A stretch of DNA of 22,300 nt, taken from IMG/VR virus record IMGVR_UViG_3300042731_007306, positions 1 to 22,300 of that record; one strand, written 5' to 3'. Made by a program: the position numbers and the translations under genes. Below the pieces are notes generated by a model that ran no database searches, was not told the DNA's origin, and was given only the letters and a program-made list of their open reading frames with translations. Positions 4,436-21,709 of this stretch are shown here, one piece after another (within the stretch, counting starts at the first letter, position 1; each line of letters begins with the position of its first letter). The stretch is from a virus.

Positions 4436-4573
4436 GGCACATCTCCAAAATGGACGAGACCGACTCCGGAGCTGTGAGCACGAGAGCACCGTTCTGGTAG
4501 GTCTCGATACTCCGGGCCGGCCTCGTGTGGTTGACTACTCAAGGTGGATACTCTCCATGCTCACAATGTATAA

Positions 4574-5876: not shown

Positions 5877-6225
5877 CCCTATTTCAAGGTCGCGTCGTAT
5901 AAGAAACCACTATGGGAACTCAGCCGAGTTTTGGAGCAAAAACGCAGATTCCGGGCGCCATGTGCAACAGTCATACAAGCCCTTGTGGTGTGTCAGTCTG
6001 GCGTGTGGCCCTGGCCCTGTTTCGGGCTCTTCGGCTCTTTTTCGGCTGGGGCTTGAGATTGGCCAGTTTTCGGCTCCCGGCAGGCCCCCAGGGGGGGGGG
6101 AGGGACCATGGCCCCTGGCAGGCCCCCGGCCGGTGGAACAAGTATACCCCCCTCCTCTCCTGTGGAGGTGTTCAGGGGGTTGATGTGGGAATTTTGGTGG
6201 TATCGCGCGTGTGTGAGGTTTTTTG
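5877..6225. other. Intergenic region with TTCGGCT repeats, G10 run and hairpin (origin-like)
   Basis: No convincing gene lies here. TTCGGCT occurs at 6030-6036, 6041-6047 and 6069-6075, with a variant TTCGGGCT at 6021-6028. GGCAGGCCCCC is repeated at 6079-6089 and 6117-6127. CCAGGGG (6088-6094) can pair with CCCCTGG (6112-6118), and a run of ten G spans 6091-6100. The plus strand is C-rich to the left and G-rich to the right. Iteron-like repeats at a skew switch suggest a replication or transcription control region, but a frame at 5960-6226 that overlaps the next gene's ATG could be a small coupled gene. Confidence 0.4.
6183..6213 (+). promoter_or_regulatory. Upstream motif copy 1 (before the radical SAM gene)
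   Basis: ATGTGGGAATTTTGGT followed after a few bases by TCGCGCG and GTG. Nearly the same arrangement is found at 7129-7160, in both cases 13 to 36 bp before a gene start. The conserved core is ATGTGG(G)AATTTTGGT. It does not resemble a sigma70 promoter closely; a phage-specific promoter, regulator site or RNA element are all possible. Confidence 0.4.
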
Positions 6226-7113
6226 ATGGAGCGAGGTTTGATCCGGGTATTTCCGCGGAGGACGAGGGCGACGCCGTGCGATGAGGGGGCGTTTGATCAT
6301 CGCTTCTGGCCGGGGCTGTGGGATAAGTGCGGGGAAGTGCACATTTCGGTAACATTTTCGGCTGACAAGGGGAAGGCAGAGGAGTTGGCTAGGATATGGG
6401 CGCCAGTATGCGGGGGCAATGTGAAAGTGGGGGGTCCGGCTTATGGGGATCCAGGAGGTGAATTCCGGGTTGGGCAATATCTACGGCCGGGATATGTGAT
6501 CACGAGTCGGGGCTGTCCGAACCGGTGTTGGTTTTGCCAAGCGTGGCGGCGAGAAGGACGGGAGGTACGGGAATTGCAGATTCAGGACGGGTACAACGTC
6601 CTGGACAGCAACCTCTTGGCATGCAGTAGGCAGCACGTGGAAACGGTATTCGAGATGCTGTCGCGGCAGAAGGAGAAGGCGCGGTTTACAGGGGGGCTGG
6701 AAGCTGCGAGGCTGGCGCCATGGCATGTGGAATGGCTGGCGAAGCTGAAGCCGAAAGTGATGTGGTTTGCCTACGACACGGCGGATGATTTGGAGCCGTT
6801 GATGAGCGCGAGTCGGCTTTTGCAAGACGCGGGGCTGATGGGGGCTGCGCATCAGGCATGCTGCTACGTACTGATTGGATGGCGGGATGACACGATCCGA
6901 GAGGCTGAGCAGCGGTTGAGACGGGTAGTACGGCTGGGATTTTTTCCGCAAGCGATGCTGCTGGACAACGGGGTGCATCTACCTCCGGCGGAAAGACGAA
7001 CATGGCGGGAATTCCGGTGGGAATGGGCCACCAAGAAGATGGTGGGAGCGAAGATGAAGCGGATTGGGCAGATAGAGATTCGGAAGGTTCCAGACATCAT
7101 AATCGCACGGTGA
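6226..7113 (+). CDS. Radical SAM superfamily enzyme
   Basis: The signature CPNRCWFC (C97, C101, C104 of 295) is the CxxxCxxC motif that holds the [4Fe-4S] cluster and S-adenosylmethionine in radical SAM enzymes. It is preceded by VITSRG, the usual first strand of the barrel, and followed by segments compatible with the barrel (KVMWFAYDTADD, ACCYVLIGW). The first ~90 residues form a separate region (HISVTF and a Gly/Pro-rich GGPAYGDPGG stretch) reminiscent of the N-terminal part of some B12-binding-type radical SAM proteins, though no cobalamin motif is evident. The start at 6226 has a GAGG site 7 nt upstream and overlaps an upstream TGA. Substrate unknown; modification of nucleic acid or protein during infection is a reasonable guess only. 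Confidence 0.8.
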   Translation: MERGLIRVFPRRTRATPCDEGAFDHRFWPGLWDKCGEVHISVTFSADKGKAEELARIWAPVCGGNVKVGGPAYGDPGGEFRVGQYLRPGYVITSRGCPNRCWFCQAWRREGREVRELQIQDGYNVLDSNLLACSRQHVETVFEMLSRQKEKARFTGGLEAARLAPWHVEWLAKLKPKVMWFAYDTADDLEPLMSASRLLQDAGLMGAAHQACCYVLIGWRDDTIREAEQRLRRVVRLGFFPQAMLLDNGVHLPPAERRTWREFRWEWATKKMVGAKMKRIGQIEIRKVPDIIIAR

Positions 7114-13753: not shown

Positions 13754-14161
13754 ATGATCGCCAAGAAGGACGACGGCAAGGAGAATCCCTACGCTATCAA
13801 GACATCCGAAGTGCTCCAACGCATTGATATCGGCGCCATTGCCACGGCCGTGATCGGGAATGTCTACCGCCGCGGGGATGCCCCGCTCCGCCTCTTTGGG
13901 CTCTGCCCGCTCTGCGAGAAGGATGAAATCATTGTCATCTGGCCGAAACAGATCGCCGTATGTCCAGGATGCCAATTCGCCGGGAACGCTATCCAACTAC
14001 TCCAAGCCATCTTCAAGTGCAACCTGGTGACGGCCCTGGAGCACATCTCCAATATCGTGTTCTTCAATGTCCCATTTTCCAAGGACACCATCGTCGAAGC
14101 CTCCAACATGCCGCCTATCGAGATGAAGAAGACCCCCAATGCCGGAAATCCACACGCGTGA
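13754..14161 (+). CDS. CHC2-like zinc-ribbon protein upstream of the terminase, 135 aa
   Basis: Contains CPLC (C51/C54) and CPGC (C70/C73) with the spacing and context of the DnaG primase CHC2 zinc ribbon: GLCPLCEKDE, then a short strand, then CPGCQFAGNAIQLLQ, followed by a helix. In primases this domain binds DNA; no catalytic primase part is present here. AGGAGG precedes the ATG. The 3' end overlaps the large terminase gene by 23 bp, so the two are probably translated together. A packaging-related DNA-binding role is inferred from position; a terminase-accessory or small-subunit role is possible. Confidence 0.65.
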   Translation: MIAKKDDGKENPYAIKTSEVLQRIDIGAIATAVIGNVYRRGDAPLRLFGLCPLCEKDEIIVIWPKQIAVCPGCQFAGNAIQLLQAIFKCNLVTALEHISNIVFFNVPFSKDTIVEASNMPPIEMKKTPNAGNPHA

Positions 14162-15647
14162 CTACAATCCCGTCCCTACGGGCAAGCGGTTTCATGCCTC
14201 GCCGGCCTTCATCCGGGGCGTGATGGGCCCGGTTGGCAGCGGCAAGAGCGTGATGTGCGCCATGGAGGTCTTCGCCCGCTCGATCGCTCAGAAGCCCCAT
14301 AACGGCGTCCGCCGTACCCGCTGGGCCATTGTCCGTAACACCCGCTCCGAGCTTGAGTCGACGACCATCAAGACCTGGCAGGAATGGATTCCCGAAGAGA
14401 TCTGCTCTTTCAAATGGAGCCCCCACATCGTCGCAAGCCTCAAATTCCCTCTCGATGACGGCACCAAAGTGAGTGGGGAGCTCCATTTCCTCGGTCTGGA
14501 CAAGGAGAAGGACGTCCGGCATCTCCGGTCCCTTGAGTTGACTGGTGTCTGGCTGAATGAAGCATCCGAGATCCCCGAGGGCGTCTTCATCATGGCCAAT
14601 GTCCGTACCAGCCGCTATCCGTCCAAGGATCAGGGCGGGCCCACCTGGGCCGGCATCATCATGGACACCAACCCGCCCACAGAGGGCACCTGGTACCACA
14701 TTCTGGCCGAGGAACGGAAACCCGAGAACTGTGCCTTCTTCCGCCAACCCCCTGCATTGCTGCCAATTCCGAAGAAAAGTGCCAGTGCACCCCAGGAATA
14801 CATCCCAAATCAGGGTCAAGGCACCTATCCCCATGCCGAAAACGTCGAAAATCACACTGATGGCTGGAATTACTGGCTTCGCAGCATCGGCGTGGCCAGC
14901 GAAGAATGGATCCGGGTCTTCATCCTGGGCGAATACGGCAGTTCGATGGCCGGCAAGAAGGTCTACCAGGACTTCTATGAGAGCCGTCACGTGGCTTCTG
15001 GGCCCCTGCAAGTGCACCGGGGCATGAAACTCTTCTGTGGATGGGATTTCGGCGTCAGAGACACCGCTGTGGTCTTCTGTCAGCTCACTCCGCAAGGCCA
15101 GCTACGCGTGATTGATGAGCTTTGGGGCGAGGATGTCTATCTGCCGCAGTTCATCCGCAACACATTCACCCCCTACTACCAGCAGAAGTATTTCGGCATC
15201 CCGACAGTCCATGTCTGTGATCCGGCCGCGCGTCAACGGTCGCCAACGGCCACCGATACCTGCATTCAGGTCATGGAAAACCACGGGATCAACATCGAAC
15301 TGGCCCCAGACAACCGTTTCATCCCCAGACGCGATGCAGTGGAGCTTTTTCTGACATCCAGCATTATTGAGGGGCAGCCCGCCTTCCTGCTGTCGCCAAA
15401 TTGCCGGCTATTGCGGGCCGGATTCCGCGGTGCCTACCATTATCGTGCCGTGCGCACGTCAACAGGCCAGGCATACCGTGATGAGCCCGAGAAGACCAAG
15501 GAAAGCCATCCACATGACGCCCTGCAGTACGTCGCGCTGATGCTCCGCCACACGAATCCAGTCACCAGCGCCCCGTTCAACCCCCTAATCAGCCAGCAAG
15601 AAAAGCCTATCCAACTCCGCAAGCCCAAAGCGTCCGGCTGGACCTGA
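14139..15647 (+). CDS. terL: Terminase large subunit (packaging ATPase and nuclease)
   Basis: Walker A GPVGSGKS (30-37), Walker B GVWLNEAS (136-143), coupling motif DTNPP (176-180), and the RNase H-like nuclease acidic set D303 (GWDFG), D361 (CDPAA) and D460 (HPHDAL), in the order of phage large terminases. The enzyme threads DNA into the prohead and cuts it at the end of packaging. Length 502 aa is normal. The start at 14139 lies inside the preceding gene and has only a weak ribosome site; coupling to the overlapping upstream gene may explain this. The portal follows after a 158-bp control region, the normal order in head modules. Confidence 0.92.
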   Translation: MPEIHTRDYNPVPTGKRFHASPAFIRGVMGPVGSGKSVMCAMEVFARSIAQKPHNGVRRTRWAIVRNTRSELESTTIKTWQEWIPEEICSFKWSPHIVASLKFPLDDGTKVSGELHFLGLDKEKDVRHLRSLELTGVWLNEASEIPEGVFIMANVRTSRYPSKDQGGPTWAGIIMDTNPPTEGTWYHILAEERKPENCAFFRQPPALLPIPKKSASAPQEYIPNQGQGTYPHAENVENHTDGWNYWLRSIGVASEEWIRVFILGEYGSSMAGKKVYQDFYESRHVASGPLQVHRGMKLFCGWDFGVRDTAVVFCQLTPQGQLRVIDELWGEDVYLPQFIRNTFTPYYQQKYFGIPTVHVCDPAARQRSPTATDTCIQVMENHGINIELAPDNRFIPRRDAVELFLTSSIIEGQPAFLLSPNCRLLRAGFRGAYHYRAVRTSTGQAYRDEPEKTKESHPHDALQYVALMLRHTNPVTSAPFNPLISQQEKPIQLRKPKASGWT

Positions 15648-15729: not shown

Positions 15730-15758
15730 TTGACAAAATGGCGCATCCGTGGTATATC
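15730..15758 (+). promoter_or_regulatory. Sigma70-like promoter of the portal gene
   Basis: TTGACA (15730-15735, six of six), a 17-nt spacer and TATATC (15753-15758, four of six). The predicted start near 15765 gives a leader of about 40 nt before the portal ATG at 15806. Operator sites 1 and 2 lie upstream and site 3 lies across the start region, consistent with negative control from site 3 or combined control by one dimer or several. Confidence 0.65.
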
Positions 15759-15768
15759 TATCCCCGAA

Positions 15769-15788
15769 ATGTGCGGAAATCCGCACAC
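15769..15788. promoter_or_regulatory. Operator-like palindrome, site 3
   Basis: ATGTGCGG (15769-15776), centre AAAT, then CCGCACAC (15781-15788). Its centre is 73 bp from that of site 2, about seven helical turns, so all three sites would face the same side of the DNA. It begins 4 bp after the expected start of transcription, where a bound protein would block elongation or opening. Confidence 0.65.
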
Positions 15789-15805
15789 TCTCCCTTTTCC
15801 CGCGC

Positions 15806-18800
15806 ATGCACGAAACTTACACTCCGACTCCGAATGTTTCGACGGGGGCTGCGGTCGGCGCAACCGGCCTGATGCGTATCGCTAGCCCCGGCCAAGTTAC
15901 CGAGGCTGAAAAGGCTGCAGCACGGGCCGAAGAAGAACAGCAGACCCCCGTAATTGAGACTCTCGCCTCCTACATCCACGAATGCTTCGATACCAACCAG
16001 AAGTTCCGCCGAAATACGGGCATCGAAGATGCCATGATCGAGGCTCTGGAGCAGCGGAATGGAACCTACAGTACCGCCAAGCTCGCGGATATCCGTGAAC
16101 AGGGTGGCTCTGAGGTTTTTTTGACTCTCACCGAAGTGAAGTGCCGCCATGCAGAGGCATGGTGCATGGATATCCTGGCCCCGACCATCGACAAGCCGTG
16201 GAAATTGGCTCCCACCCCGGATCCCGAGCTCCCCCCAGGCACCGAAGAGGCCATTGTTGAGCGGAGCTTGGCTGAATGGCGCCAGCGGCTCAGTACCGGC
16301 GGTATGCTGCCCCAGGAGGTCTATGAGCTGGCTTCCCGGCTGCGAGACGACATCGATGATGAGATGCAGCGAGAGGCCACCCGCCGGGCCGAGAACATGG
16401 ACCGGAAGATCTACGACCAGATGGCCGAGGGTGGCTGGCAGGCGGCGTTCGAGGACTTCGTCACCGATCTCGTGACTTATCCTTGCGCGATCATGAAAGG
16501 GCCGATCGTCCGCAACCGGCCCAAGAAGCGCTGGGTCCGCAACAAACAAGGCAAGCTGGTTCGCAAGATCCGTACCGAATTGACCCCCGAATACGAACGC
16601 GTCTCACCCTACGATCTCTACCCTTCTCCTGGCTCTACTACGGTCGAGGACGCCGTCAACCTGATTGAACGCCAGGAATACTCCCGATCGCAGCTCCTGG
16701 ATATGAAGGGCAATGAGGGCTATGACGACGACGCTATCGACCTGGTGCTCCTTGAGTACGGTGTGCAGGGGTTCCACCACAACACTGAGGTCGACGAAGC
16801 CCGCAGCGACGAAGAGGATACCGGCGAACGCCAGCACGAACGACAGGATTGGATTGAGGCACTCGAGTTCTGGGGCTCCGCCCAAGGCGGGCTCCTGATC
16901 GACAAGGGCATGACCGAGGATCCTGACGGCAACCCGATCGAGCCTCTCGCTGAGTATGAGATCAACGCCATCGTTGTGAACAACAGAGTCATCTACCTGC
17001 GCTTCAACGACGATGAGGCCAAAGAGTGCGTGTACTCCAAGACCGTCTACGCCAAGGTGCCTGGATCATTTTGGGGCAAGGGCGTCCCTCAACTCATGAA
17101 GCCCATCCAGGACATCATCAACGCCACCGTGCGCGCGATGTCCAACAACGAAGGCATTGCCTCGGGCCCCCAGATCATCATCAACGACCACAAGCGGGTA
17201 CACCCGTCGACGGACATCGTCAACCTTCACCCCTGGAAGGTCTGGTTGGGGCGGAACCCACAGCATGAACAAGGAGCCAAATTCGTTGACTTCTTCCAGC
17301 CTGACTCGAACGCGGCCGAGCTCATGGGCATCATGGAGACCTTCATCAAGATGGCCGACGATTTCTCGGGCATCCCGGCATATAGCTACGGGAGTGATCA
17401 AGTTGCTGGTGCGGGAAGGGCCTTGGCCGACTATGAGACCGTCATGACCCCCGACGGTCCAATCCCCATGGGCCGCTTGGAAATCGGCGACCTCGTGGCG
17501 AACAGTTATGGCGGCTTCTCAAGGGTTGAGGGCATCTATCCGCAGGGTGAGCGCGACATTTACCGCATGACATTCAGTAATGGCGAACGAGTTGACTGTG
17601 ACCTTGAGCACCGATGGTCTGTCAGCCGGAATGTGACTAAGCCAAAGCCGTTTTTCAAAACATACACTTTGCGAGAAATTCTGGAGAAGGGGCTATTCCA
17701 TCGCGTCAAAAAAGACAAGCATCATGCCGAGGATCGCGACCTTCCCAAATGGGCTGTCCCAAAACCGCAGGCGATAGATTTCCCTGAACGCGAACTCAAG
17801 ATTGACCCATATACGATGGGCGCACTTATTGGGGATGGTGATGCGGCGGCAAGACTTGCGAGCGCCGACCCAGAGATTTTTGAGCGCATCCCTTACGAAT
17901 TGGGCATGGTCGAGACCTTGCGAAATAATCGAGCCGTGCGCCGGACCGTGAAAGGCATTCGCTCTGAATATCGCAGTTATGGATTGGCATGTAAATCCAT
18001 TCACAAATTCATACCGTTCGATTACCTCCATACCTCGATGGGGGACCGCCTTGAACTTCTCCGCGGCCTCATGGACACGGACGGCTGTTGCGAGGGGCAG
18101 AAAGGGCAGACATTTTTTGATACGTCCTCTGAGCGCTTGCGCGATGACTTTATGTATTTAGTGAAATCGCTGGGCGCAACGGGCGTGAGTGTCTTCACTT
18201 ACGCGGCCGCTGCTGGAAACGTGCATGGCCAAGAGCTGTGGGGCAAACAGAAATACAGGGTTTTCTTCGATCTTGGCGACACGCCCGTTTTTCACCTTCA
18301 GCGCAAATTGCGAAACCGAGCGAAGCGGAAAAGGAAGCAGCGCAGGAATACCTACATTACCGGCGTTGAATATGTTGGTCGATGCAAAGCGACGTGCATC
18401 ACGGTTGATGCGAAAAACAGTTTGTTTCTGTGCGGCAATTTCATCCCCACCCACAACACCGCGTCAGGCCTTTCCATGCTGATGAACAGTGCCGCGCGTG
18501 GCATCCGTAAGGTGATCGCATCTATCGACCAGGAAGTCATCAAGCCGATCATCGAGCGGCAGTACGACTGGAACATGCAGTATCTCGACGATGAGTCGCT
18601 CAAGGGCGACGTAGAAGTCAAGACCGTTGGCGTCCTCGCCATGATCGTCAAGGAACAGATGATGGTGCGGCGCACGGAATTGTTGAATGCAACCAATAAC
18701 CCGTTGGATGCGGTTATAACGGGAGCGGAGGGAAGAGCAAATGTGTTGAGACAATGGGCAAAACAACTTGAGATGGAGCCGGACGAAGTCGTGCCTTGGA

Positions 18801-18934
18801 CCCCAGAACAGTTGAAGCTGCTCGACCAGGTCATGATGAAACAACGGCTCGCAATGGCGGCTGCGGCGACCCAGCCGGAAACTCCTCCGGCCCAAGGCGC
18901 TCAAGCCCCTTCTTCGCGCCCTGAAGCGGCGTAG
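15806..18934 (+). CDS. Portal protein (P22-like) interrupted by an in-frame intein
   Basis: The precursor is 1042 aa: N-extein 538 aa, intein 346 aa (17420-18457), C-extein 158 aa; splicing gives about 696 aa, close to P22-type portals. Portal features include the segment YERVSPYDLYPSPGS, the KVPGSFWGKGVPQLMKPIQ segment and a GAGR/TASGLSMLMNSAARGI motif, which is the highly conserved 'GRTASGLSML' region of this portal family and holds the intein. The portal forms the dodecameric ring through which DNA enters and leaves. The C-terminus is Ala/Pro/Gln-rich. The start at 15806 has no clear ribosome site; a GTG at 15749 is in frame but lies within the promoter. It directly follows the large terminase. 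Confidence 0.88.
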   Translation: MHETYTPTPNVSTGAAVGATGLMRIASPGQVTEAEKAAARAEEEQQTPVIETLASYIHECFDTNQKFRRNTGIEDAMIEALEQRNGTYSTAKLADIREQGGSEVFLTLTEVKCRHAEAWCMDILAPTIDKPWKLAPTPDPELPPGTEEAIVERSLAEWRQRLSTGGMLPQEVYELASRLRDDIDDEMQREATRRAENMDRKIYDQMAEGGWQAAFEDFVTDLVTYPCAIMKGPIVRNRPKKRWVRNKQGKLVRKIRTELTPEYERVSPYDLYPSPGSTTVEDAVNLIERQEYSRSQLLDMKGNEGYDDDAIDLVLLEYGVQGFHHNTEVDEARSDEEDTGERQHERQDWIEALEFWGSAQGGLLIDKGMTEDPDGNPIEPLAEYEINAIVVNNRVIYLRFNDDEAKECVYSKTVYAKVPGSFWGKGVPQLMKPIQDIINATVRAMSNNEGIASGPQIIINDHKRVHPSTDIVNLHPWKVWLGRNPQHEQGAKFVDFFQPDSNAAELMGIMETFIKMADDFSGIPAYSYGSDQVAGAGRALADYETVMTPDGPIPMGRLEIGDLVANSYGGFSRVEGIYPQGERDIYRMTFSNGERVDCDLEHRWSVSRNVTKPKPFFKTYTLREILEKGLFHRVKKDKHHAEDRDLPKWAVPKPQAIDFPERELKIDPYTMGALIGDGDAAARLASADPEIFERIPYELGMVETLRNNRAVRRTVKGIRSEYRSYGLACKSIHKFIPFDYLHTSMGDRLELLRGLMDTDGCCEGQKGQTFFDTSSERLRDDFMYLVKSLGATGVSVFTYAAAAGNVHGQELWGKQKYRVFFDLGDTPVFHLQRKLRNRAKRKRKQRRNTYITGVEYVGRCKATCITVDAKNSLFLCGNFIPTHNTASGLSMLMNSAARGIRKVIASIDQEVIKPIIERQYDWNMQYLDDESLKGDVEVKTVGVLAMIVKEQMMVRRTELLNATNNPLDAVITGAEGRANVLRQWAKQLEMEPDEVVPWTPEQLKLLDQVMMKQRLAMAAAATQPETPPAQGAQAPSSRPEAA
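17420..18457 (+). other. Ala-1 intein with LAGLIDADG homing endonuclease domain, inserted in the portal
   Basis: Starts ALADYETVMTPDG (block A, first residue Ala, like class 2 inteins such as KlbA), followed by MGRLEIGDLV. Block B is near H64 (CDLEHRWSV). Two endonuclease motifs, GALIGDGDA (134-142) and LLRGLMDTDG (213-222), have both acidic residues expected in an active LAGLIDADG enzyme. Block F is near 319-337 (EYVGRCKATCITVDAKNSLF) and block G is FIPTHN (341-346), followed by Thr as +1 extein residue. Codons look less GC-rich than the flanks, suggesting recent arrival. Extein join: GAGR plus TASG. Confidence 0.9.
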
Positions 18935-18973
18935 ACATAGGGAGAGACCATGACAAACGTAGGAGGCAGACAG

Positions 18974-21709
18974 ATGGAACGATGGACAAGAAGGATAGTC
19001 GGTGCGGTTGTGGTGCTGCTGATCGCGGCAGGTGCTTTCGCCGCGGACAGGGAAAATTACCATGTCACGAGACTGTACGTAGGTGATCCTGCGATCCAAG
19101 TCAGTGGATCTGGGACTTCCCTTCTCGAACAGCTCAATGGTGGTACCAACACCTTCACCCGAATCAATGAGAAGGATTCCTCGCTCGGAATTACGATTGT
19201 AGCCACAACGAACATCACGCATCAGTCGGATTACACTCTGTTGCAGTGTGCAGCCGGGGCTGGCGACGGTGAGTTGAGGCTCCAGGGTGATGGTATCATC
19301 ACCGCCACAAGCAACCTGGTCGTCAACGCCAATACCGTGACGCTGCGTAATGCGAGTGGTGGGGGTGACTCCAACCTCGAATGCAATGGTAACTTCGTCC
19401 TAGGCGTTGTCAGCAACATGACTACGGAATGTTCGACCAACATTCTCCGTGGTGCAGCAGGCAACACCGATGCGGCGATGGAGGCCATCAACCTCTCAGT
19501 GATTGCCAGGACGAATATCACGGTCCGATGTGCGACATTGTTTGTGAGTGATACAGCGGGCACCAGCCATGGCGATATTTCTAGCGTTGCACAGGCCCAG
19601 CTACGGCTCGCTGCTGCGGATCGAACGACCGCAGGGGCGGGTACATCTCTAACGCTGACGGGTTCTGCTGGTCTCACGGCGGGAGCTGGTGGTGACATTA
19701 CGGCAACCGCGGGAACTGCTGCAGGTACGTCTACAGGCGGTGATCTGTCGCTCAATGCGGGAACTGGCGCAACTACTGGTGCTGGTGGTTACACCACATT
19801 GGTAGGGGGTACAGGTGGTGCTAACGGTGATGGCGGCGTAGCCGAAATAAGAGGTGGTCGTGGTGGGGCCTCGGCCGGTGCAGGTGCCAATGTGCGCGTC
19901 TACGGTGGCCGTGCATACGCGAATAATGAGGACGGTGGCGATGTTGACATCGCTGGCGGTCTAGCTCATAGCGCCGGTGAAGATGGTACGATCTATCTCA
20001 AGGGTTACGCAATCGCCATATCGGATCGCGGCGGTGACGGTGACGGCACAGTCACTTCTCCCAACCTTACGATGACCATGGCGACGAACCTCACGGTGAA
20101 CGCTGATGCCATCATCGCAAGCGATGCGGCTGGAACGGGTGCAGGAACCATCCAGACAGTTGCGGCACAGACCCTCAGTCTGGCATCCACAAGCGCGGGT
20201 GCATCTGGTAACGGCCCGGAGCTTGATATCACAGCCGGCAACGCCCATACGTCGGGTACGGGTGGTCCAATCGACATCAATGCGGGTACAGGTGCAGCCA
20301 ATACCGGCGGTGGCATCACTATTACGGCAGGTGCCTGCGCAAGTGGCAACGGCGCTGGTGGAACCGTGGATATAGACGCGGGTGATGCGGCTGGTAGCGG
20401 CAACAATGCTGGCGGAAATGTGCAAATTGACGCTGGTGACGGTGCCAACACAAGTGGTACTGGCGGAAACGTTTCCATCGCTGCTGGTACCGGCGGTTCA
20501 AACGGTGATGGTGGACCCATTGCCATAACTGCTGGCAGCGGTGGTGCCTCAGCAGGCGATGGCGGGAATATCACCCTGACGGCTGGTAATTCTCCAGCAG
20601 CCACTGATGGTAACGTAATTGTCAATGCGCTTGGGCTTACTGTGAGTGATCAAGCCGGAACGGGCGCGGGCAGTATCGCGGCTGTTACTGGCCAGGAGCT
20701 CAGTATTGGTGGCACGAACATCATTCTGCAAGCACTGAATGTACGGGTGCGAGGATTGACTGGGGAAACGGACGGGATCATTACCAGTCCGAATCTTACC
20801 ATGACGATGGCCACTAACCTGACGGTGAATGCTGACACGATTATCGCCAGCGATGCGGCCGGTACCGGAGCCGGCAAGCTCACAAGTGTCAGCGGGCAGA
20901 CGCTGAGCGTGGAGGCTAATGCCGCCACGTTGCTCATCGGTCCGGCTGATGCAACCAAGATCGAAATGGCCGATGCGGCCGTGGAGACGGAAGTCCAGGG
21001 CACGCTTGAGGTGATCGAAGAGGCCACCCTGGTTAAAGGCGTGGACCGCAGCCTCTACCTCGAGTATTACGAGGAGTTCTTGGACATCGCTGGGACAACG
21101 GAGCCGCAGCCGTGGGCGACCGATCTGGAGACGAGTTGTACTGCCGACTACATGGCGGACGAGCCTTGCGGCGTGCACCAGATCGCAACCACTGCAGCCG
21201 ACCAGGCGGATGCCGGTCAGCTTACGTGGGGCAACGATCTCAAGATCGACATGGACAAGGATCCGATCATCACGTTTCGGGTCCGAGTTGATGGCGTTGC
21301 TGACCTGGAGTCGGTTGAGAAGGTTATCTTCGGCGTCTGCCCAGACCATACGAACGCTGAGGATGCACTCGACAACATCGATGACAGCGCATGGTTCATG
21401 CTCAAGGGCGATAACGATCTCAACATCTACGTCGAGGGCGATGACGGCACGACCGACAACGATGACAGAGACAGTGGCGTTGATATCGTAGACGACACTT
21501 GGACTCTCTTGCAGATCGACTTCTCATCCCTGGCGGACGTGAAGTTCTATATCGACGGCGTGGAGCAGAGCTACGGCACGATCAACATGGCGGCCTCGGC
21601 AGGTACAGTCGTACAGCCGATCATCCTGATTCAGCGGACCAGCAACGCAGGGACTGAAGCTGCTGTTGGCGTTGAGACGGACTTCTGCCATATAAACGTA
21701 GATCGGTAA
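18974..21709 (+). CDS. Large exported-looking glycine-rich repeat protein (fibre or beta-helix type), 911 aa
   Basis: The start at 18974 follows AGGAGG at 18961-18966 and gives MERWTRRIVGAVVVLLIAAG with cleavage expected near AFA/AD; an upstream ATG at 18950 is also in frame with a GGGAG site. After the leader, most of the protein consists of short glycine-, threonine- and asparagine-rich repeats (GGDITATAGTAAG, GGPIDINAGTG, GGNVSIAAGTGG and similar) of about 18-20 residues, typical of a parallel beta-helix. A duplicated segment lies at residues 360-391 and 603-634. The last ~220 residues are not repetitive and resemble a concanavalin/LamG-like sandwich (ADVKFYIDGVEQSYG, near the end). It is probably a receptor-binding or tail-spike-like protein, but a Sec leader is unusual for a virion protein assembled in the cytoplasm. 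Confidence 0.65.
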   Translation: MERWTRRIVGAVVVLLIAAGAFAADRENYHVTRLYVGDPAIQVSGSGTSLLEQLNGGTNTFTRINEKDSSLGITIVATTNITHQSDYTLLQCAAGAGDGELRLQGDGIITATSNLVVNANTVTLRNASGGGDSNLECNGNFVLGVVSNMTTECSTNILRGAAGNTDAAMEAINLSVIARTNITVRCATLFVSDTAGTSHGDISSVAQAQLRLAAADRTTAGAGTSLTLTGSAGLTAGAGGDITATAGTAAGTSTGGDLSLNAGTGATTGAGGYTTLVGGTGGANGDGGVAEIRGGRGGASAGAGANVRVYGGRAYANNEDGGDVDIAGGLAHSAGEDGTIYLKGYAIAISDRGGDGDGTVTSPNLTMTMATNLTVNADAIIASDAAGTGAGTIQTVAAQTLSLASTSAGASGNGPELDITAGNAHTSGTGGPIDINAGTGAANTGGGITITAGACASGNGAGGTVDIDAGDAAGSGNNAGGNVQIDAGDGANTSGTGGNVSIAAGTGGSNGDGGPIAITAGSGGASAGDGGNITLTAGNSPAATDGNVIVNALGLTVSDQAGTGAGSIAAVTGQELSIGGTNIILQALNVRVRGLTGETDGIITSPNLTMTMATNLTVNADTIIASDAAGTGAGKLTSVSGQTLSVEANAATLLIGPADATKIEMADAAVETEVQGTLEVIEEATLVKGVDRSLYLEYYEEFLDIAGTTEPQPWATDLETSCTADYMADEPCGVHQIATTAADQADAGQLTWGNDLKIDMDKDPIITFRVRVDGVADLESVEKVIFGVCPDHTNAEDALDNIDDSAWFMLKGDNDLNIYVEGDDGTTDNDDRDSGVDIVDDTWTLLQIDFSSLADVKFYIDGVEQSYGTINMAASAGTVVQPIILIQRTSNAGTEAAVGVETDFCHINVDR
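20051..20146 (+). repeat. Internal repeat, copy 1 (32 codons)
   Basis: Encodes VTSPNLTMTMATNLTV and the following NADAIIASDAAGTGAG. It is 30 of 32 residues identical to the segment at 20780-20875, although the DNA differs at about two thirds of the codons, nearly always silently. It is embedded in the Gly-rich beta-helix region. Confidence 0.8.
20780..20875 (+). repeat. Internal repeat, copy 2 (32 codons)
   Basis: Encodes ITSPNLTMTMATNLTV and the following NADTIIASDAAGTGAG, the partner of 20051-20146. Only V to I and A to T differ between the copies, while I count about 19 synonymous codon changes. Confidence 0.8.

Follow-up and report, generated by a model that had tools for sequence, protein, structure and literature searches.

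The window analysed here, the 22,300-base IMG/VR virus contig IMGVR_UViG_3300042731_007306 (all positions follow its numbering), raises the question of what a 346-residue insert represents in a phage portal gene and how it came to be there. The open frame that contains it (15749 to 18934) encodes 1061 amino acids, or 1042 if the ATG at 15806 is the start codon; GTG 15749 and ATG 15872 are the other candidates. By translation, the insert (ALADYET...IPTHN) occupies exactly positions 17420 to 18457 of the plus strand, preceded by GAGR and followed by TASG, and the portal without it measures 696 amino acids from ATG 15806, with GAGRTASG rejoined. The first-pass annotation had read this segment as a LAGLIDADG intein with a spliced product of about 696 residues; translation confirms its borders to the base and agrees with the size when counted from ATG 15806.

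The interrupted portal gene and its insert

Once the insert is set aside, the host is an SU10/P22-type portal by profile and by fold. The portal part outside the insert matches Pfam SU10_portal (2.8e-14) and, in PHROGs, the head-tail adaptor and portal families phrog_332 (2.8e-50) and phrog_1216 (2.3e-16). The fold was taken from a weak predicted model (mean pLDDT 70) of an intein-free homologue, L130, which matches the SU10 portal 7z44 with a Z-score of 27.8; its pLDDT falls below 50 just before the insertion loop, too weak to place this loop in the tunnel or the stem. The N-extein (15806 to 17419, plus strand), which ends in GSDQVAGAGR, corresponds to the N-terminal part of the portal according to Pfam, PHROG and the portal alignment. 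The C-extein (18458 to 18934, plus strand), which begins with the +1 Thr (TASGLSMLMNSA...), corresponds to the remaining portal in the alignment with intein-free portals. Upstream lies the gene of the terminase large subunit (14139 to 15647, plus strand; phrog_2, 2.4e-25; Pfam Terminase_6N, 2.6e-5), whose Walker A motif (GPVGSGKS) is translated without interruption. Downstream of the portal gene, positions 18950 to 21709 encode a 919-aa Gly/Thr-rich protein that contains repeated motifs and matches neither Pfam nor PHROGs, and elsewhere in the window (6223 to 7113) a protein matches a phage radical SAM domain family (phrog_9298, 8.7e-16).

The joined 696-aa portal aligns with intein-free relatives without gaps, and GAGRTASG is contiguous in the intein-free portal of Rhizobium phage RHph_TM3_14A. 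When the rejoined junction was aligned against IMG/VR, at least 568 relatives were confirmed; the 80 best intein-free portals all read GAGRT[AS][ST]G, most being about 685 aa long, and a scan with six N-extein peptide patterns alone found no relatives. Alleles lacking the intein, which the first-pass annotation had proposed to seek in metagenomes, are thereby available, and the portals are contiguous at the insertion point. The segment is extra sequence in the portal alignment and not a normal portal domain, the reading that the same annotation had named as its possible refutation. Since GAGRT and GLSMLM are invariant across 19 aligned intein-free portals, the insertion site lies in the most conserved stretch of the protein, as had been proposed.

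Within the insert, the N-terminal half of the splicing (Hint) domain (17420 to 17782, plus strand) carries blocks A and B, with Ala-1, D61xxH64 and W66 (codons of H64 and W66 at 17609 and 17615). It is followed by a LAGLIDADG homing endonuclease domain (17783 to 18340, plus strand) and by the C-terminal half of the splicing domain (18341 to 18457, plus strand), which carries blocks F and G, with C326 (18395) and T344-H345-N346 (18449 to 18457). The borders between Hint and endonuclease domains are approximate and were taken from the structural alignment of the intein model with the intron endonuclease I-Tsp061I, which matches model residues 122-307. Besides this match, the endonuclease assignment draws on Pfam LAGLIDADG_3 (2.8e-6, above cut-off, residues 211-253) and on two motifs that, as first described, retain their acidic residues: MGALIGDGD (17816 to 17842; D139 at 17834) and LLRGLMDTDG (18056 to 18085; D219 at 18074 and D221 at 18080). 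The insert also aligns over its full length with intein-bearing terminase profiles of PHROGs (6.5e-32). The profile check suggested earlier succeeded for the endonuclease and failed for the splicing domain: Pfam Intein_splicing has no match anywhere in the window and no Pfam Hint model matches the intein. A Hint fold is nevertheless indicated because the predicted structure matches this fold (see below) and because Hom_end_hint matches 7 of 35 relatives of the intein.

Inteins in other portals and their probable mobility

Class 3 inteins were found at about 20 portal loci and fall into three clades (A, B and C). Clade A, defined by the site of the window, comprises eight other distinct portals. 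Seven IMG/VR loci carry inteins that are 51-57% identical to that of the window, all at the same portal codon, and further scans located the clade A site in a Lentisphaerae MAG and in two more IMG/VR loci. Clade B (L052, which is L210 in IMG/VR, and L211-L213) is sister to A and is inserted six residues upstream, at YGNER/TGGAAQTASG (here and below the slash marks the insertion point). The inteins of clade B combine Ser-1 with the full WCT triplet of class 3, an unusual mixture of class 1-like and class 3 features. Clade C (L097 and L215-L221) consists of Met-1 class 3 inteins at SLNK/TATG or SLGN/TATG in SU10/N4-type portals. L097 is a Sphingopyxis portal (SU10_portal match, 1.2e-172) whose insertion site aligns with that of the window, and the hosts of L215-L221 appear to be portals, judging from their loop sequence.

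The intein tree supports A (98), B (100), A+B (100) and C (99), all on starred branches, and puts clade C and A+B in different halves. A tree constrained to unite the three clades is 33 log units worse (AU p 0.07, with eight clade C members), and a single origin is not rejected when only one clade C member is included (p 0.59). A common origin of A/B and C is disfavoured, and we firmly claim neither one origin nor two.

Two members of the set show sequence irregularities. Codon 6 of the L021 intein (match 1064-2080) is an in-frame TAG, where the related L020 has GAA; recoding of the stop, mutation and misassembly are all conceivable, and intein and portal are otherwise intact. The portal gene of L001 looks frameshifted: upstream of position 4500 a stop codon and a change of frame break its N-terminal half, probably through an error of assembly or sequencing.

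Related inteins recur in the same portal loop of unrelated phages, and most relatives of the window phage lack the insert. The first-pass annotation had regarded a portal host as uncommon, which is too strong given these approximately 20 loci and the six portal inteins known in cluster C1 mycobacteriophages (PMC5050341). The latter resemble the window intein in having a portal as host, and the comparison concerns the host protein alone; gp98, gp99 and gp112 of phage Alice, examined for the C1 portal intein, do not match any portal family.

In a portal tree with many long branches, whose details are unsure, carriers are scattered among intein-free portals, with five label changes, at least three of them forced by starred branches, and the portal of the window falls with five intein-free portals in a starred group with support of 100. 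The portal of the carrier L001 is 71% identical to that of intein-free L129. Identity between clade A inteins stays at 50-63% (84% for L051 and L021) while that of the portals spans 21-71%, and it keeps to this range for portals that are 53% identical and for those at 21%, a steadiness that fits homing between divergent phages. The sporadic presence of carriers next to close relatives without insert is likewise in keeping with a selfish homing element of the ordinary kind. The two kinds of allele share a source: metagenome IMG 3300035698 yielded L003 and L006, which carry the intein, as well as L130, which does not, and such natural pairs could serve for testing phage-to-phage homing.

It is very probable that the insert is a mobile class 3 LAGLIDADG intein parasitising the portal gene, one that would splice itself out and home into empty alleles. 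Mobility could nevertheless have ceased: the intein may still splice while its endonuclease is inactive, the element now being inherited with the gene. In half of the eight clade A rows (including L002, L004, L020/L051 and L021) Asn replaces D139 in motif 1, which suggests that some lineages of the family may be losing endonuclease activity. For the window copy we consider such decay unlikely, as it retains D139, D219 and D221 and its endonuclease domain is predicted to fold with high confidence.

It had also been suggested that splicing could act as a timing switch, i.e., that it gates portal assembly, for instance by redox control through the cysteine of block F. There is a precedent in the class 3 DnaBi1 intein of M. 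smegmatis, which is inhibited by H2O2 via its catalytic cysteine (PMC6195587), and the window intein has, in addition to C326, two cysteines (C60 and C338) that are invariant in six aligned clade A members. However, clade C lacks C338, nothing in the locus suggests regulation and the sequence bears no sign of conditional splicing. Moreover, close intein-free portals, among which the carriers are scattered, manage without the intein, and this sporadic distribution is what an ordinary selfish homing element would produce. We therefore regard a switch as very improbable and retain the mobile, self-splicing element as the preferred reading.

Class 3 signature, fold and proposed splicing

Class 3 inteins are defined by the WCT signature and use a C-H-T triad (PMC7664689); the signature comprises Trp at block B:12, Cys at block F:4 and Thr at block G:5 (PMC5050341). 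All three residues are present in the window intein, as W66, C326 and T344. Block B reads D61-L-E-H64 (DxxH), and the intein ends in H345-N346 followed by the +1 Thr. Position 1 offers no Cys or Ser nucleophile; it is Ala, as it is throughout the eight clade A rows. Among 97 sequences (the window intein and relatives), H64, C326, T344 and N346 are each conserved in 97, H345 in 96 and W66 in 94. The layout aligns with that of the class 3 DnaB1 intein of M. chimaera (6rix), C326 corresponding to C124 of MchDnaB1, with a shared THN.

The AlphaFold model of the intein (mean pLDDT 94.8) points in the same direction. By structural alignment it matches the class 3 DnaB intein of M. smegmatis (6bs8) with Z 20.2, at 1.6 Å over 123 of 125 residues, and 6rix with Z 19.2; full-length PI-SceI is matched with Z 26.7 over 319 residues. 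On the evidence of these residues and of the modelled fold, the insert belongs to class 3 and is more than an Ala-1 intein. The initial description of an Ala-1 LAGLIDADG intein was right on both points and incomplete, in that W66, C326 and T344 point to the block F cysteine as nucleophile.

Ala-1, and with it the missing N-terminal nucleophile, would also suit a class 2 intein, in which the +1 residue attacks directly, as in the archaeal KlbA inteins. Class 2 is, however, characterised by Ala-1 without the WCT triplet, whereas the window intein has both WCT and DxxH, its WCT residues are kept in 94 to 97 of the 97 sequences, the published definition of class 3 is this very signature (PMC7664689) and, at the domain level, the best solved fold relatives include class 3 DnaB inteins. 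An assignment to class 2 is accordingly most improbable.

As a class 3 intein, the element would be expressed and excised as follows. The portal gene would be translated as a single 1042-aa precursor (from ATG 15806), in which C326 of block F, with H64 and T344 and aided by W66, would attack the Arg/Ala-1 bond and hold the N-extein as a thioester. The N-extein chain would then be transferred to the side chain of the +1 Thr, cyclisation of N346 would free the intein, and an O-to-N shift would yield the ordinary portal of 696 aa, its GAGRTASG intact again. After release, the two-motif LAGLIDADG endonuclease is expected to cleave empty portal alleles at the rejoined GGTGCGGGAAGG/ACCGCG sequence, and repair of the break would copy the intein in. 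The choice of an invariant loop in an essential ring protein would make imprecise loss lethal and guarantee targets in other phages.

Finally, the window is a metagenomic contig, so an intein from another gene might have been joined to the portal during assembly, an idea that is refuted by the exact joined reading frame and by homologous inteins at the same codon in independent contigs of several samples and in the Lentisphaerae MAG.

Walker A resemblance and known systems

Most non-portal relatives of the window intein (54 rows in the comparison of DNA sites) sit between GK and a following T or S, in the Walker A motif, for which GK/T is a classic intein insertion site (PMC5050341). The portal site GAGR/T resembles GxGK/T, and L007 reads GGAGK. 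Compared over 27 bases, the window site agrees with the joined DNA sites at 11.9 on average and with other codon positions of the same host sequences at 7.0. The amino-acid constraint of the loop and the sampling, which used patterns from the intein family, both contribute to this difference, which is suggestive of a modestly closer likeness between the portal site and Walker A sites. Because most relatives occupy Walker A GK/T or GK/S, which GAGR/T resembles, it is plausible that the portal intein descended by a jump from a Walker A (GK/T) P-loop intein. More tentatively, and with odds slightly against it, the loop preceding the TASG/TATG helix of portals could mimic Walker A GK/T and could have been invaded by class 3 inteins from ATPase genes at least twice (A+B, and C). 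If this is true, portals would be a standing second home of P-loop inteins, whose endonucleases would tolerate mimicry across genes. Class 3 inteins are also found at a conserved site outside P-loops, VQGN/TSNIVFLKSTDD, in a long actinobacterial protein (L100, L072, L083 and L084).

Neither class 3 inteins nor inteins in phages are new. Our search of the open literature combining intein, portal and SU10 found no paper on inteins in SU10-type portals, and the literature examined contains no description of class 3 inteins entering the portal TASG loop repeatedly. The present data extend the recurrent hosts of class 3 inteins to a ring protein that is structural and not an enzyme, and provide a concrete case for the change of host gene by inteins, in which endonucleases homing to Walker A GK/T face a look-alike GR/T site in portals.

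In its two-domain architecture, the window intein resembles PI-SceI, the intein of yeast VMA1; the latter is a class 1 intein of 454 aa with Cys-1, whereas the window intein is a smaller, Ala-1 intein of class 3. With the Walker A (GK/T) inteins of TerL, DnaB and helicases it shares the superfamily and the position before Thr, after a basic residue and in a Gly-rich loop, but the portal loop, unlike those of the Walker A hosts, is not a nucleotide-binding P-loop. Its identity with the phage inteins of the annotated collection does not exceed about 34%. The closest parallels are the class 3 inteins of MP-Be DnaB, M. smegmatis and M. chimaera DnaB1 and mycobacteriophage TerL and RecB, which likewise have WCT, DxxH, a THN end and no nucleophile at position 1, and from which its Hint fold departs by 1.6-2.0 Å over about 125 residues. 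It differs from these known class 3 inteins in residing in a portal instead of an ATPase or a nuclease, and from the DnaB1 mini-inteins in keeping a full LAGLIDADG domain.
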